A stretch of DNA of 36,797 nucleotides, taken from an uncultured Bacteroidota bacterium. GTDB lineage: Bacteria > Bacteroidota > Bacteroidia > 2-12-FULL-35-15. The stretch is taken from NCBI GenBank assembly GCA_903870175.1, contig CAIQBY010000392.1:1-36797 (forward strand), given 5' to 3'. The notes under the pieces are model-generated. The model worked only from the letters and a program-made list of their open reading frames with translations. It searched no databases and was not told the DNA's origin. Of this stretch, positions 8,038 through 30,599 are shown piece by piece; position 1 is the first letter of the stretch, and each line of letters begins with the position of its first letter. The translations under genes were made by a program, and so were the position numbers.

Positions 8038-8990
8038 GTAATCGTAATAAAATAATTTTAAATTAGAGAGGAGTCAAAGTTAATATATAATAAAAGCTAA
8101 ATCATTGATAAATAACTTTAATTATTCAGGGGTTGATGTTAAGAACTTAACATTATACAATAATGGCATTATTTATTTGATAAGGCTCAAAGGTAAAATG
8201 AAGTATTTTAATTTAAAAGGGGGCTACCCACTTACTTATTTCCTTCTCTTTTTAATATAAATAACTAATTTCTGCGATTTAACGAATGAATAGTTATTTA
8301 TTTCTAAAACCTTATATGTACGAAATGACTTCATTTTGATTAATAATTAGATTTTGTCTTTTTAAGTTTTTACAAAAAAAATGTTCTTAGGATTATTGTA
8401 AATTTCGAAGAACTTGAAATCTGTTTTAAGGATAGTGAAAGTGCTGAAATTGTTACAAAAATTATTTTTAAGATACTAAATGCAGAAATGAGAGGTAATA
8501 TTCCAATACTTATTATACAAATCACCAAATCTACATTATCTATTTCCTTAATTTTCTTACGACAAAAAATCGGTACAATAGATTAATTTTAACCTTAAAT
8601 TCAGAAACAGGTCACTTTAAATTTGTTTTTCAGTTTTCAAAGTAAAAATAAAGGAGCCAAATTATTATTTAAGGGAACTCCTTTATTTTAAAAAGGAGTT
8701 CCCATTAAAAATAAAGGAGTTCCCTTTTTAAAAACAGGAACTCCCGTTTAAAAAACGGGAACTTCCGTTTAAAAAACAGGAACTCCCTTTTAAAAAACAG
8801 GAACTCCCTTTTTAAAAACGGGAGTTCCCATTTAAAATAAAGGAGTTCCCATTAATAATAAAGTAACTTAGTTTTTTAACAAAACGGGCAATTAAAAAGC
8901 TAACTTTTCCAACATTATGAATATGATTATCAGCAATATATAGGAGGCGAAATCGAAATAAACATAGTATGGGATTTAATAATTTCAGCC
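8038..8990. other. 953-base intergenic region with a 21-bp repeat array
   Basis: Lies between the start of the large secreted protein and the stop of the histidine kinase, both on the minus strand. It holds the array at 8673-8850. Upstream of the array, 8347-8586 is an open frame of 79 codons on the plus strand with no ATG near its beginning and a protein-like middle (NFEELEICFKDSESAEIVTK); it may be a decayed gene fragment or chance. The rest is AT-rich with no feature I can support. Confidence 0.6.
8673..8850. repeat. 21-bp periodic array 1 (core GGGA-AC/GT-TCCC)
   Basis: Nine copies of a near-palindromic core, GGGA and TCCC arms around a central AC or GT, begin at 8673, 8695, 8716, 8737, 8757, 8779, 8800, 8820 and 8842 (some copies lack one outer base; the fifth reads GGGAACTTCC). 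Spacing is 21 bases, once 22. Spacers are ~12 bases of A/T, typically with a TTTAAAA centre. The central dinucleotide gives each core an orientation; in order it reads AC, GT, GT, AC, AC, AC, AC, GT, GT. It starts about 140 bases downstream of the kinase stop. It contains frequent stop codons and is not coding. Confidence 0.9.
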
Positions 8991-18900: not shown

Positions 18901-20862
18901 TCATTTCTCCGTCGAAAAAGAAGAAACTGCAATTATCTGTATCTTCCTTTCCATGGCAGCTGCAGGACTATAAACTGAATTTTTCGTATCGTAATAATCA
19001 TCGCTCACATTCGGTCGCGCTTTCAATTCACCAATATCTTCCTCCAGAAATGTAATACTCCCTTCCTTCGCATCTGCATTATTTACATAGTGTGCAAACA
19101 CTCCATTTTCATATTCCATAAAATAATTTTTTAACGACGACACTCTTCGCTTCGCAAGATTAACATTATAATCCGTTGATGCCAGCGGGCTGCAATATCC
19201 TTTCATCGTTATGGTAACTTTCTCATTATCCTTCAAAACCTTTTTAAGCAACTGTGCAAACCTTTCCAAATCCTGCATTCCTGCATCCACACTGTCATCA
19301 AAAAATGTTTCAATATCATTCACCGCTCTGTCATAATCCTTATCTGTCGCACCTTTCGAATATTCCCTTTTATACTGCTCACGCATTGCCGAATAATCTT
19401 CGTAAGTCTTTTTATAATTTTTTGTTGTAGTAACAGCCAGAGTTTTTTTATCCGGCTCATCATTATGAAAATACAAAGTTAGCGGAACCAGCAGTTTCAT
19501 TTGTGTCACAAACACCTTTGTACTGTCAACCTTTCTGGGCGGTTCATTAATCTTCGGTATTTTAAACATAAAAATATCATTGCAGCAACTTTCCTTTTCT
19601 TCAAAATAAGAACCCTTCCTGTTCGATGAAATAAACGCTTCTGTCTTCTTCGAATTTATCGAAAAATAAATATCATTGCAATTACTGTTAATTGGTGAAC
19701 CCAGATTCTTCGGCTCACCGAATTCCCCATCTTTATATCCACTCTTAAATATATCAAATCCTCCAAGCCCTTTCCACCACGTCGAACTGAAAAATAATTC
19801 CTGACAAGGTTTGCAATAATAAGGAGTAATTTCATCCTCTATCGAATTTACATTTTTTCCTGCATTCACCGCCTTTCCATACGTTCCATCCTTCTTAATC
19901 CTGCAATACCAGATATCCATTTTCCCTTCTCCGCCCGGACGATTGGACGAAAAAAACAAAACTTCCTTATCTCCCAAAAACCCTACTGCCGGTTGCGTAT
20001 TCGTATACCCTTTCATATTCACAGGCTCCGGAAGCTTCCGCAATCCCTGCCAATGCCCATTCACAAAGTCCGACGAATATATCTCACACATAAAATCCTG
20101 AGCATTTTTCTGCGAACATCTGCTTATGTAAACCCTTGTAAAATCATCATTAAAAGCAGTATTCGCCGTATGCACTCCCTCCTTGTTAAAAACAGTATCC
20201 AGCTCTCTCGCCTTCTCCCAGCGCAAACTATCCTGCACCGCAGTATATATTTTATTATAACTCACATTATTTTTCTTATCCCTGTCCTTCGTATCCCGCA
20301 GCGACGAAAAATACAAAACGCTATCCACCTCCACCGGCGCATATTCCGACACCTTACTATTCACCATCGAGTCCAGATGCACCATCTTTATTGTCTTATC
20401 AGGGCTCGCCATCAGCATCTCCGCATAATCACACGCCGCCACCTCCATATTCGCCTTCCTCACATAATAATCATCCGTCTTCAGCTTATTCCGTTTCGCA
20501 TACTTATCAAACAATTTTTTCGCCTCCTTATATTTCCCTTCCCCCTTCTTAATCGTCGCCAGCCAAAACGAACACAGCGGATAATGCTTCCCTCCATCCT
20601 TCTTCAACACCTTGCCATACCAGTGTTCCGCAATCCCCAAATCATAATTCAGCCTGCTCGCCTCCGCATATTTATACTGCACCCCAATGTCGCTCGAATC
20701 CTGATTAATCGCCCTGTTATAATATCCCGCAGCACCAAAATAATCATGATCCTTCATCGCCTCATCACCGCTATCAAGCAAATCCGCCGTCCGCTGCCCG
20801 AACATCGAACCCGAAATCAGCACACAAATCACAACAAATAAAATTCTCACATCACACCTCAT
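18901..20862 (-). CDS. OmpA-family protein with TPRs and PD40 (WD40-like) repeats
   Basis: Exported envelope protein of ~653 residues. A signal peptide (RILFVVICVLISGSMFGQ) is followed by TPR-like helices (~25-135; DLLDSGDEAMKDHDYFGAAG, then AEHWYGKVL), a beta-propeller of PD40 repeats (~155-430; VLYFSSLRDTKD, VLFFSSNRPGGEGKMDIWY, ELFFSSTWWKGLGGFDIF, EAFISSNRKGSY), and a C-terminal OmpA-type peptidoglycan-binding domain (TITMKGYCSPLASTDYN, VNLAKRRVSSLKNYF). The same domain order occurs in PorE-like proteins of the type IX secretion apparatus, but many Bacteroidota paralogs share it, so no symbol is given. The frame extends one codon to a GTG at 20865; the adjacent ATG at 20862 is chosen. It is first in a run with lnt, lpdA and hemH. 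Confidence 0.88.
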   Translation of the reverse strand: MRCDVRILFVVICVLISGSMFGQRTADLLDSGDEAMKDHDYFGAAGYYNRAINQDSSDIGVQYKYAEASRLNYDLGIAEHWYGKVLKKDGGKHYPLCSFWLATIKKGEGKYKEAKKLFDKYAKRNKLKTDDYYVRKANMEVAACDYAEMLMASPDKTIKMVHLDSMVNSKVSEYAPVEVDSVLYFSSLRDTKDRDKKNNVSYNKIYTAVQDSLRWEKARELDTVFNKEGVHTANTAFNDDFTRVYISRCSQKNAQDFMCEIYSSDFVNGHWQGLRKLPEPVNMKGYTNTQPAVGFLGDKEVLFFSSNRPGGEGKMDIWYCRIKKDGTYGKAVNAGKNVNSIEDEITPYYCKPCQELFFSSTWWKGLGGFDIFKSGYKDGEFGEPKNLGSPINSNCNDIYFSINSKKTEAFISSNRKGSYFEEKESCCNDIFMFKIPKINEPPRKVDSTKVFVTQMKLLVPLTLYFHNDEPDKKTLAVTTTKNYKKTYEDYSAMREQYKREYSKGATDKDYDRAVNDIETFFDDSVDAGMQDLERFAQLLKKVLKDNEKVTITMKGYCSPLASTDYNVNLAKRRVSSLKNYFMEYENGVFAHYVNNADAKEGSITFLEEDIGELKARPNVSDDYYDTKNSVYSPAAAMERKIQIIAVSSFSTEK

Positions 20863-20996
20863 CACAATTTTAAAATCAAAATTATTTCTCGCAAAGGTAA
20901 ATTATTTGTCCATCCAATCCATCATTTCATTCCAACCTTAGACAAAGACACACCATTTTCAAATCTTCAAATTTTCAAATCATCAAATTCTTTTTT

Positions 20997-21170
20997 TGGG
21001 CGAATCACGTTCCTGCCATCCACGCAAGTTCCTCCCTGCCCTCACGCGGTATCTTTTTTTCTTTAATTTTTCCCTGCGGGGCAAAGGAAAAAAAAGGATA
21101 CTCACGCGGGTCAGGCGCAGTTGCAAGTTCATCGCGGTCACTGAGCCTCGGTCATTGAGCCTGTCGAAAT
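20997..21170. repeat. GC-rich REP/MITE-like patch
   Basis: A patch clearly richer in G+C than its surroundings. It includes a 51-base segment (21050-21100) whose ends are inverted (TATC-T7-C against GG-A8-GGATA) flanked on both sides by the 9-base direct repeat CTCACGCGG (21041-21049 and 21101-21109). Further right, CGGTCAyTGAGCCT occurs twice in tandem (21135-21148 and 21149-21162), followed by GTCGAAAT; this resembles the widespread bacterial repeat family containing a GACAGGCTCAGTGACC-type sequence. The call as a repeat rests on recall and internal structure, not on copy counts. Confidence 0.55.
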
Positions 21171-21234
21171 GTCCATACCAACACAAAAAAGTTCCGTAAA
21201 TTACTATTACTTATAACAAGATACTTCCCACTCC

Positions 21235-21411
21235 GATAATCGCTAACGACTTCCCGATAATCGCCTACGACCTCTCGATAATCGCTAACGACCTCCCGAT
21301 AATTGCTAACGACCTCCTGATAATCGCTAACGACTCCCCGATAATCGCTAACGACTCTTCGATAATCGCCTACGACCTCCCGATAATTGCTAACGACTCT
21401 TCGATAATCGA
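21235..21411. repeat. 21-bp periodic array 2 (core CGATAATCG), direct orientation
   Basis: GATAAT starts at 21235, 21256, 21277, 21298, 21319, 21340, 21361, 21382 and 21403: nine units at exactly 21 bases. The core CGATAATCG has palindromic CGAT/ATCG arms around a central A. It is followed by CTAACGAC or CCTACGAC and a pyrimidine-rich joint (CTCC, TTCC, CTCT). Unlike the other two arrays all units point the same way and the spacer is not AT-rich. Units differ by one to three bases (TCGC to TTGC; CTAA to CCTA), so it is old enough to have diverged while keeping exact spacing. No plausible gene covers it. Confidence 0.93.
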
Positions 21412-21559
21412 GTGTTTTTCAAAAAAAACTCCACAAACGCGATTTAAGACATGCTAATAACTTTAGGCTGTTTTGCAGCAAAAAGAAAAACAAATGGATT
21501 TGAGGGTCAATTTTGACCTCATTTAACTTTTTACCAAACAATATAAGTTCCAAAAAATA

Positions 21560-21627: not shown

Positions 21628-22068
21628 TTATTTACTCAACAATTCCTTCACAATCCCTGAAATTACCTTTCCATCCGCCTTTCCAGCCAATTGTTTAGTA
21701 GCCGCACCCATCACTTTCCCCATATCCGCCGCCGAAGAAGCACCTACTGCAGCAATAATTTTCGCCACCTCCGCTTTTATTTCATCCTCACCCATTTGTT
21801 TCGGCAGATAAGCTTCAATCACAGCCGCCTGTGCCAGTTCCACTTCAGCCAAATCCATTCTGTTTTGCGTTTTATACACATCAGCAGTTTCCTTCCGCTG
21901 CTTCACCATCTTCTGCATCGCCTTCAATTCCGTCTCATCCGAATATCCTTCAGCCGAAGTCTTCAAAATTATTATCGCCGATTTAATCGCACGCAAAGCT
22001 TCCAGTTTCGCAGCATCCTTAGCCAACATAGCAGTCTTAATCTCTGCATTTATTTTTTCTTCTAACAT
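21628..22068 (-). CDS. GatB/YqeY domain protein
   Basis: A 146-residue YqeY-family protein. The family shares the helical tail domain of the GatB/GatE amidotransferase subunits; its own function is not firmly established. Visible: N-terminal MLEEKINAEIKTAMLAKD, LEALRAIKSAII, RKETADVYKTQNRMDLA, EAYLPKQMGEDEIKAEV and the closing MGKVMGAATKQLAGKADG with KVISGIVKELL. The frame is open to a TTG at 22101, but that codon lies inside a good -7 promoter box, so the ATG at 22068, which also matches the usual family start, is chosen. It is transcribed alone, with its own promoter and terminator. Confidence 0.92.
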   Translation of the reverse strand: MLEEKINAEIKTAMLAKDAAKLEALRAIKSAIIILKTSAEGYSDETELKAMQKMVKQRKETADVYKTQNRMDLAEVELAQAAVIEAYLPKQMGEDEIKAEVAKIIAAVGASSAADMGKVMGAATKQLAGKADGKVISGIVKELLSK

Positions 22069-22098
22069 AATTTTATTTTTTTTATTATTGATTTCTGA

Positions 22099-22131
22099 CA
22101 AAATTAAGTATTTCTATTGTTCTGCAACAAA
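22099..22131 (-). promoter_or_regulatory. promoter of yqeY
   Basis: On the minus strand TTTG (22131-22128), 21 bases, then TAATTTTG (22106-22099) matches the Bacteroidota consensus TTTG-N19-21-TAnnTTTG. Transcription would begin near 22094, leaving a ~25-base leader before the ATG at 22068. This rules out the upstream TTG start. Confidence 0.65.
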
Positions 22132-23997: not shown

Positions 23998-26900
23998 ATG
24001 GCAATTTCCAAAAAAACAAATCTTAAGGTGGAAACTGAAGTGAAAAAACTTCAGAAGCAAATAGATTTGCTTAAAAAAGAAAATGCCAAAACAAAAGCAG
24101 CACTTAAAATAAGCGAACAGAAATTTAAAAACCTCTATGAGTCTGGCTTTGAAGGAATAGTAATTCATAAAAACGGAGTAATACTTGAAGTAAATAATGC
24201 TATTTGTAAAAAAGTTGGATATACCCCAAAACAAATAATTGGTGAACCTGTTTTTAAATTCATTCATCCCGAATATCATGCGAAAGTTTTAGAAAAAATT
24301 AAGACTAAAGACGCATCGCCGTATGAAATAATAATGTTGCAAAAAGGAAAGAAACAATTCTGGGCGCAATTACTGGCAAGTGAAATAGATTATAATGGTC
24401 TGCCGGCAAGAGTTACGGCAGTTCGTGATATTACAGAATTAAAAGAAAGTGAAAACCGAATTTTAGAAAGTGAAAGAAAATTTTCTGTATTGTCAAATAA
24501 TTTCCCCTGCATTGCATATCGCTGCAAAATGGATAAAAATTTCACAATGGAATTTTTAAGCGATAATTTCTTTGAACTTACCGGTTATAACCCTAAAGAT
24601 TTCATTAATAATAAAAAGTTTGCTTTTAATGATATTGTTCATCCGGAAGATAGAGCGAATCCAATTTTATCTAAAGCTGTAAAACAGAAAAAAACATACG
24701 ACATAGAATATAGATTAATCAGTATTAATAATGAAATTAAATGGGTTTGGGAAAAAGGGCAGGGAGTTTTTGACAGCAAAGGGAAACTTTTATATTTAGA
24801 GGGTTTTATTGCTGATATTTCAGAAAAAAAGAAGTATGAACTGGAATTAAAAAGAACCAGAGAAAACTATAAAAGTCTGATCGATAATTCGCCTGACGGG
24901 ATAATTATTTATGTTGATGGCAAGGTTGAATTTGTAAATAAAGCAGCATTAAAATTGCTGGAGTCTAAACCTGAACAGGTAATAACAAGACACCGGACTT
25001 TTTATTTATTACCGGAATATCACCAATTTGCTGCTGAGCGAATGGAGAAACTATTTAAGGGAGAGATAGTTCCTTATGCTGAATTTAAAATGAAAACAGC
25101 GAAAGGTAAAATTATTGAAGTGGAATCAAAACCTACTTTGGTAACTTATGATGGTAAAGATGCAACTTTGGTGGTGATGCATGATATCTCTTCGAAAAAA
25201 CAATTGTTGAAAGAACAGGTACGTGCACAATACGCAGAAGAAGCAAATCAACAACTTCAATTCGAAATAAACGAAAGAAAAAAAGCGGAGCGAATAATTG
25301 AGAGTAATCAAAAATATACTGGATTATTGATTGAGAGTTCGCTTGATATTATTTGTGCTACTGATAGAAAGGGGAATATTATCGAATTTAATACTGCAGC
25401 CCAAGAAACATTTGGATATAAACGTGAAGAAATTATAGGGAAACATGTAAAAATATTATATGCAAATCCTAAAGAACGAACTAATATTACGGAAAAGGAA
25501 TTGATTGGGAAAGGAATATATATTGGCGAAGTTACTAATATTAAAAAATCAGGCGAACAATTTATTTCTTTTCTTTCTGCTTCCGTACTGAAAAATGAAG
25601 AAGGAGAAATTGTTGGAGCAATGGGCGTTTCCCGTGATATTTCCGAATCGAAAAAGGCAGAACAGGAATTAAAAGACAGTGAAGAAAGGTACAGGGCAAT
25701 TTTTAATCAGGCATATATAGGAATAGCAAAAATAGATCTGAAAGGGAAATTTATACAGGTAAATCAACAGTTATGTGATATGCTTGGCTATTCAAATGAA
25801 GAACTATGCAGGATGAACTTTGTTGACTTGACTTCTACTGAAGATATGGAATTATCTAAAAAATATTGGAATAAGTTTGTGTCCGGGAAATTGGAAAAAG
25901 CAACTTTTGAAAAAAAGTATTTACATAAAAATTTACAATTGATTTACGCAAACTTAACTATTTCACTTGTCCGCGACACATCAGGAAAACCTTCACATTT
26001 TATTACCGTTTTTCAAGACATTACAGAAAGAAGAAAAGCGGAAAAAGAACAACAAGTTCAGGCAGCCAAATTAAATTCTATTTTTGAAAGTGGTGCTCAT
26101 TTAATTTGGACAGCAGATAGAAATTCATGTTTGACTTCGTATAATCAGAACTTTAAAATTTTTATAAAGCAACAATATAAAGTAGAAATTTACCTTGGAA
26201 TTTCGATGATGGAAGGACAAATGATTTCTACTCAAGAATTAAATTCTTATTGGAAAAATAAATACGATTTGACTTTAGCGGGTATTCCCCAATATTTTGA
26301 AACAAAATTTATCAATGATATTGGAAGAGAAATATGGTATGAAATATTTTTGAATCCAATATTTGGTGAAAATGGTGAAGTTGTTGAGATTTCTGCAATC
26401 GGCCATGATATTACTGAAAAGATAGTTGCAAACGAAAAAATCCATCAGTCGTTACAGGAAAAGGAAGTATTGTTAAAAGAAGTTCACCATCGTGTTAAAA
26501 ATAATTTACAGGTAATTTCAAGTATTCTTAATTTACAATCATCTTATGCCAAAGATAAAAATACTTTGAATATTTTAAAGGAAAGTCAAAATCGAATAAA
26601 ATCGATGGCATTTATACACGAAAGTTTATATCAGACAAAAGATTTTTCAAATATTAATTTTTCAGAATATATAATTAATTTGTCTCGAAATCTAATTAAT
26701 ACATATTCTGATTTGGAATACGAAATAAAGCTAAAACTGGATATTCAACCTATTATGCTTAATTTAGACCTTGCTATTCCTTCCGGATTAATAATAAATG
26801 AACTTATTTCCAATGCAATTAAATATGCCTTTAATGATGTTTATAAAGAGAATATCATAGCAATAGTAATGCATTCCGAAGAGGAGTACTTAAAATTAGT

Positions 26901-30151: not shown

Positions 30152-30258
30152 AGTTCAAAGATGCATTTGTTTTTTGAGACGGAGAAGGTTTTGTTGATAT
30201 TTTTCAAAAGTATTATTTGGTTTTCGAGCAAAATAGTTGGCAAAAGGAGGAGATTAGT

Positions 30259-30432
30259 GGACCCACTAAGCTACTTTCTTGGTCCACTAATTCAATTAGT
30301 GGGTCCAAAAAATGATTTCCTGGACCTATTAATCCGATTTCTGGTTCCATTAATTCAATTAGTGGGACCAGAAATCCAATTAGTGGACCCAGAAAGAGAC
30401 TTCTTGGGTCTGGAAAACTCTTTGTTTGGTCC
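30259..30432. repeat. 21-bp periodic array 3 (core TGG-A/T-CCA)
   Basis: Nine cores related to TGGwCCA, some with one extra G or C, are centred near 30261, 30283, 30304, 30324, 30345, 30367, 30387, 30409 and 30430, i.e. every ~21 bases (20-22). The central A or T sets orientation; in order it reads A, T, T, A, T, A, A, T, T. The eighth copy is degenerate (GGGTCTGG). Some spacers are themselves inverted: CCACTAATT and AATTAGTGG flank one base near 30284-30302, and CCATTAATT / AATTAGTGG recur near 30347-30365, so hairpins between neighbouring cores are possible. Confidence 0.88.
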
Positions 30433-30599
30433 AGAAAGTTGCTTGTGTTTTCGAATTTTATGTATTTATATTGCTGCAATATTTATATTTTATCAGTTGA
30501 AAGCCAAGTAAAATGTTAAATTTGCTACCTTAACAAAAGATTTATTTTGTAAATTAAAAAGTAAACAAACGTTAAATTATAAATTAATTGTACATTAGT

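Follow-up and report, generated by a model that had tools for sequence, protein, structure and literature searches.

Minisatellites in bacteria are usually regarded as separate loci whose unit lengths are arbitrary. REP/BIME elements, which go with RAYT transposases, are short palindromic intergenic repeats, sometimes clustered, and a single REP word is common across a genome. BrickBuilt of Porphyromonas gingivalis is a MITE carrying a 23-nt minisatellite of one word family, in 19 copies, together with a leader, a tail and terminal inverted repeats (PMC4596501). The TAACTGA heptamer forms direct repeats in Beggiatoaceae, Cyanobacteria and some Bacteroidetes (PMC4679880), and BldC-type regulators form head-to-tail oligomers on direct repeats (PMC5859096). 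Like BrickBuilt, the locus described here belongs to a member of the Bacteroidota and consists of tandem units between genes, each about two helical turns long.

The locus lies in a stretch of 36,797 nucleotides (the window), which is contig C392 of the 3.95-Mb draft genome G000 (423 contigs). Array 2, on the plus strand at 21234-21410, consists of eight full 21-bp units, each formed by the core CGATAATCG and a 12-nt spacer with the consensus CTAACGACCTCC, followed by a ninth core. A preliminary description of this DNA had reported nine GATAAT starts exactly 21 bases apart, and this is what is found on the plus strand (21235, 21256, 21277, 21298, 21319, 21340, 21361, 21382 and 21403, every step being 21); the full core starts one base before GATAAT, which places the array at 21234-21410. 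The other GATAAT words of the window are scattered. The unit differences given in the same description (TCGC/TTGC, CTAA/CCTA and a variable CTCC joint) are all present, and no two of the eight complete units are identical; their mean pairwise identity is 0.83 (0.67-0.95). Variation is confined to eight columns, of which seven are C/T and one is A/T. Between units of array 2 (plus strand, 21234-21401), 17 of the 19 changes are C<>T and none is G<>A; in the sister array on contig C403 (L009 9062-9208), described below, C<>T accounts for 15/15 changes, again with no G<>A. This bias is partly due to the all-pyrimidine joint, and at the CpG steps of both arrays the C varies and the G is constant.

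Array 2 is flanked by two minus-strand genes. One, at 18901-20865, encodes a 654-aa protein with an OmpA-like C-terminal domain (Pfam OmpA, 26.2 bits, slightly below the curated cut-off of 27.2) and is conserved in relatives; the other, at 21628-22101, encodes a YqeY-like protein (PF09424, 140.7 bits). A CRISPR array was considered and rejected, the spacers repeating with the unit and the flanking genes being the OmpA-like and YqeY genes; a CRISPR-like polarity from the tail of the array, inspected by eye, was unconvincing. A dispersed repeat adjoins the array, outside it, at 20955-21173; it contains GGTCACTGAGCCTCGGTCATTGAGCCTGTCGAAATG and has dozens of partial copies in four related genomes. 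The window holds two further arrays of 21-bp units, array 1 at 8674-8853 with the core GGA(AC/GT)TCC and array 3 at 30253-30437 with the core TGGNNCCA, both with unit orientations mixed in register and both with a homologous array in the related genome G012. The preliminary description took array 2 to be the only array with all units in one orientation and a non-AT spacer, which is correct within the window but does not extend beyond it, many arrays elsewhere in these genomes being one-directional.

We found the pattern CGATAATCG-N12-CGATAATCG at three loci of G000, namely array 2 and its paralogs on C403 (L009 9041-9216) and C354 (1934-2087), and at none in 394 other genomes of the class. A count of the core elsewhere in the genome, proposed with the preliminary description, could be made in 345,696 sampled bases of G000, where CGATWATCG occurs 14 times, always within the three sister arrays. 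The three arrays also have in common a conserved tail of about 75 bases, which in the window runs from 21402 to 21476 on the plus strand, opens with the last core and shows 84% mean column identity over 77 columns. A tail pattern search returned exactly these three loci in G000, and in 24 relatives only matches at chance level. Within the tail, a hairpin-forming stretch (GAGTGTTTTTC/AAAAAAAACTC, 21410-21431) keeps its pairing in the three copies, with 8/8 pairs retained, one pair changed on both sides (U-A vs G-C) and one G-C/G-U, which is weak support as it comes from only three sequences. The array 2 word is in no other genome searched, and its locus shows no synteny in relatives. Therefore, the three loci and their common tail, together with the absence of the word from the other class genomes searched, assign array 2 to a small, dispersed family that is specific to its species.

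The sampled stretches comprised 346 kb of G000, 86-136 kb each of G012, G005, G014 and G004, and a further sample of 200 kb from the more distant congener G010, plus others. These relatives are MAGs of uncultured Bacteroidota, and isolate names point to a lake or reservoir origin for several of them; the sample is one of draft MAGs, with one genome per species and partial coverage. We scanned the stretches for self-match at lags of 12-89 (84-base window, at least 64% self-match), settings at which 1.04 Mb of Markov-3 surrogate sequence gave no detection. Considering these surrogates, a TRF score of 233 and a core confined to the sister arrays, a chance origin of array 2 is excluded.

In 795 kb from five related species, the scan detected 44 arrays of period 21 or its multiples, periods of 42, 63 and 84 being also seen. 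When arrays lying in long open frames are set aside, the best lag is 20-22 in 41 of the 55 non-coding arrays and exactly 21 in 38; some arrays repeat at 20 or 22 bp, and outside coding sequence there are almost none at 15-19 or 23-29 bp. The words are mostly unrelated from locus to locus. At this density, we estimate about 200 such arrays in a genome of the size of G000. Several arrays stand at contig ends (L012 on G000:C394, L014 on C396, L175 on G012:C265 and L171 on G014:C44). Short-read assemblies of these lake bacteria probably break at the arrays, which are therefore likely under-counted, and assembly collapse may hide others. The arrays are found between tandem, divergent and convergent gene pairs alike, which argues against their being part of a promoter or terminator.

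Other members of the genus gave no array in 345 kb, and G010 a single doubtful one in its 200 kb. Two unrelated lineages again carry 21-bp arrays at high density, each with its own words: a best lag of 20-22 was found in 10/13 non-coding arrays of G041, a Bacteroidales MAG from a lake, and in 7/11 of those of G030, from another family, all of these at exactly 21. The trait is patchy and recurrent across three Bacteroidota lineages. Mostly unrelated words clustering at 21 in all three bear out the earlier suggestion that the period, and not an AT-rich bent spacer, is the common property. Array 2 thus belongs to a class of intergenic minisatellites spread over the genome. A given word is confined to a single locus or a few loci, and a unit length of 21 bp is nearly universal. 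The arrays evolve by gain and loss of entire units and by drift of the word, and now and then one is copied to a new site together with a short flank, an example being the CGATAATCG arrays with their common tail.

How strictly the 21-bp spacing is kept was estimated from wrap-around alignments covering 42 arrays and about 420 units in all. We counted 35 indel events per 820 minimum substitutions (0.043 per substitution), compared with 40 gap openings per 248 substitutions (0.161) in ordinary intergenic DNA aligned between G000 and G012. Array indels are thus about 4-fold rarer per substitution, a ratio biased by the fact that indel-broken arrays are harder to detect; several of the tests in this work also count related units more than once. 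The preliminary description held that no insertion or deletion had been tolerated in array 2, but the data do not support this claim. With only 8 minimum substitutions, about 1.3 indels would be expected at the ordinary intergenic rate, and finding none has a Poisson chance of about 0.28, which is unremarkable. Indels are moreover seen in other arrays: between G000 C168, where a 20-base unit is present, and G012 C506 the arrays differ by one whole unit of 20 bases and a few substitutions, the G012 copy of array 1 has one unit that is one base short, and whole arrays run at 20 or 22 bases.

The C168/C506 array sits in a 3-kb stretch that is 97% identical between the two genomes (G000:C168:23302-26333 and L211 8500-11513 of G012:C506) and covers the end of a large gene and the array; of the comparisons made, this one comes closest to a comparison of strains. 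As G000 and G012 are near 80% identical elsewhere, this stretch reflects either a recent exchange or an unusually strong conservation. A repeat adjoining the C506 array has a copy in G000 (C26:24939-24995) about 40 bp from a RAYT-like Y1_Tnp gene (25036-25395), and may be a REP element of this transposase. As a driver of the arrays in general, RAYT/Y1_Tnp was rejected, since matches are present in 13/15 genomes, with and without arrays.

G012 retains array 1, its units being oriented differently there, and has array 3 with about one unit fewer. Array 3 carries 38 substitutions in 156 aligned bases between G000 and G012, against 32/284 in its flanks, i.e. a rate about twice as high; at the corresponding intergenic site, G014, G005 and G004 do not have it. 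Upstream of the OmpA-like gene, three species carry arrays of three unrelated words, all at 21 bp (21234-21410 in the window, L168 10694-10966 in G005 and L171 180-429 in G014), which may be a coincidence or a turnover in place. Whole-unit turnover is fast, and since units are gained and lost as wholes, copying accounts for part of the exactness with which an array is spaced. One unit length across unrelated words and lineages is nevertheless beyond what copying explains.

With 10.5 bp to each turn of B-DNA, a length of 21.0 bp makes two turns. We favour, with a probability of roughly 40%, the reading that the arrays are minisatellites with fast turnover which are kept at two helical turns as protein-binding platforms. 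The DNA-binding protein would probably be a dimer that oligomerises, and would sit on the conserved core of each unit; sites 21 bp apart would share one face of the helix, so that neighbouring proteins could touch. The word would be free to drift or be replaced, the spacing could not drift far, and the platform would be amplified and renewed by unit duplication. Candidate outputs would be nucleoid packing, silencing or a tuning of the neighbouring genes.

Such a platform is the simplest reading that covers four features together: the period does not depend on the word, unit lengths are narrowly distributed, palindromic cores are in excess, and units are inverted in register. The scarcity of indels per substitution, with the detection bias noted above, and the gain or loss of a unit at C168/C506 are also in its favour. 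The spacing falls at whole helical turns regardless of the word, as a helically phased array demands. Palindromic cores exceed column shuffles, with a mean z of 1.23 over 41 arrays, as expected for dimer sites, but many arrays show little or no palindromy, and that of array 2 is not significant (p 0.097). In arrays 1 and 3 the units flip orientation in exact register, and both arrays are retained between G000 and G012. Against the platform stands the lack of a strong common motif, so that one protein of ordinary specificity cannot read all arrays: a search for a motif hidden across words gave 5.83 bits, a small excess over the 5.37 of shuffles. A common site was rejected, the palindromic tendency (GAA...TTC-like) being unusable as a site. 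A 10.5-bp modulation of column conservation was also rejected, because the neighbouring harmonics are raised with it, a signal due to clustered conserved columns. That the helical period itself, and not the word, is the conserved signal throughout the chromosome, with dozens of unrelated words per genome amplified and maintained at two turns by an undescribed protein or amplification machinery, we regard as doubtful.

Unit-wise copying alone also makes the spacing within an array regular, and it is only slightly less likely than the platform that the arrays are neutral minisatellites which nothing reads. Their units would be copied as wholes by slippage or unequal recombination, and the length of 21 bp would either come down from ancestral arrays or be the step preferred by a local amplification machinery. 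The direct gain or loss of a unit at C168/C506, amid 97% identical surroundings, is what such a process would produce, as are the absence of arrays from orthologous sites in sister species and the higher-order periods of 42, 63 and 84, which indicate block duplication. The divergence of array 3 ahead of its flanks, unlike that of conserved binding sites, points the same way. However, plain slippage gives no reason for a length of 21 bp in dozens of unrelated words and in three lineages, nor for the near absence of non-coding arrays at 15-19 or 23-29 bp, and it does not make in-register inversions of units.

Array 2 and its tail could alternatively be a non-autonomous mobile element of the BrickBuilt kind, copied to three places. 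The presence of common units and a tail of about 75 bases at three unlinked loci, missing from 24 relatives, is consistent with this, and G012 contains a similar pair of arrays with short flanks in common on both sides. The three CGATAATCG arrays, however, have no left flank in common and no consistent terminal inverted repeats (none in array 2, and weak AT-rich pairs of differing sequence in the other two copies), and an empty site with a target duplication could not be defined. We consider a mobile element unlikely, the more so as it would account for the three copies of array 2 but not for arrays of other words that have no common flank.

A role of the arrays as transcribed, structured RNA appears quite improbable. 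The minus strand of array 2 does fold better than dinucleotide shuffles (z -3.4, with -3.37 for a paralog), the tail keeps its hairpin, and 6/25 arrays, including arrays 1 and 3, fold strongly in comparison with column shuffles; in this same comparison, however, array 2 is ordinary (z -0.97) and about half of the 25 arrays show nothing, and no Rfam family was matched. Intrinsic curvature by phased A-tracts is very improbable: a two-turn period would add any bend in phase, and a few arrays (L143, L101b and L168) are predicted to be curved, but the mean z over 25 arrays is -0.15 against column shuffles and array 2 is predicted to be straighter than its own shuffles (z +0.85), so that predicted curvature, being no greater than in shuffled arrays, again favours period over bending. 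Finally, coding heptads, for which 21 bp would be 7 codons, can be practically dismissed: the unit length is divisible by three and some of the arrays fall within open frames, but open frames number 107 against 93.6 expected from composition, the arrays sit between genes, and the existence of 20- and 22-bp arrays and of single-base shifts means that the ruler is not the codon.

The class thus combines one unit length, whatever the word, with an occurrence in at least three separate Bacteroidota lineages whose close relatives are without arrays. If selection acts on the period, these genomes offer a natural test of helical phasing, with words free to vary and a spacing that is not; a purely mutational origin would call for an amplification process that works in 21-bp steps, which would be equally new. 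In the open-access literature, we found no description of a class of 21-bp arrays with many words and one period.

Compared with known systems, the TAACTGA repeats are similarly abundant, intergenic, direct and patchy across lineages, but they consist of one 7-bp word, head to tail, and in the best-studied genome lie mostly directly upstream of start codons (PMC4679880). BldC provides a model for a protein filament of variable length reading helically phased direct repeats; its repeats, however, are about one turn apart and have a set consensus (PMC5859096). Unlike REP/RAYT systems, the presence of arrays does not follow that of Y1_Tnp (PF01797) genes. BrickBuilt is the nearest published case: like the family of the three CGATAATCG arrays, it repeats a unit of constant length in tandem at several loci, and its copies share flanks and differ in copy number between strains, which we count as a likeness (PMC4596501). 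The arrays described here differ from it in their dozens of unrelated words and their period of 21, and array 2 has neither a common left end nor inverted termini, the tail being the one flank that it shares with its sisters. The class with many words and one period belongs among the intergenic minisatellites of bacteria.
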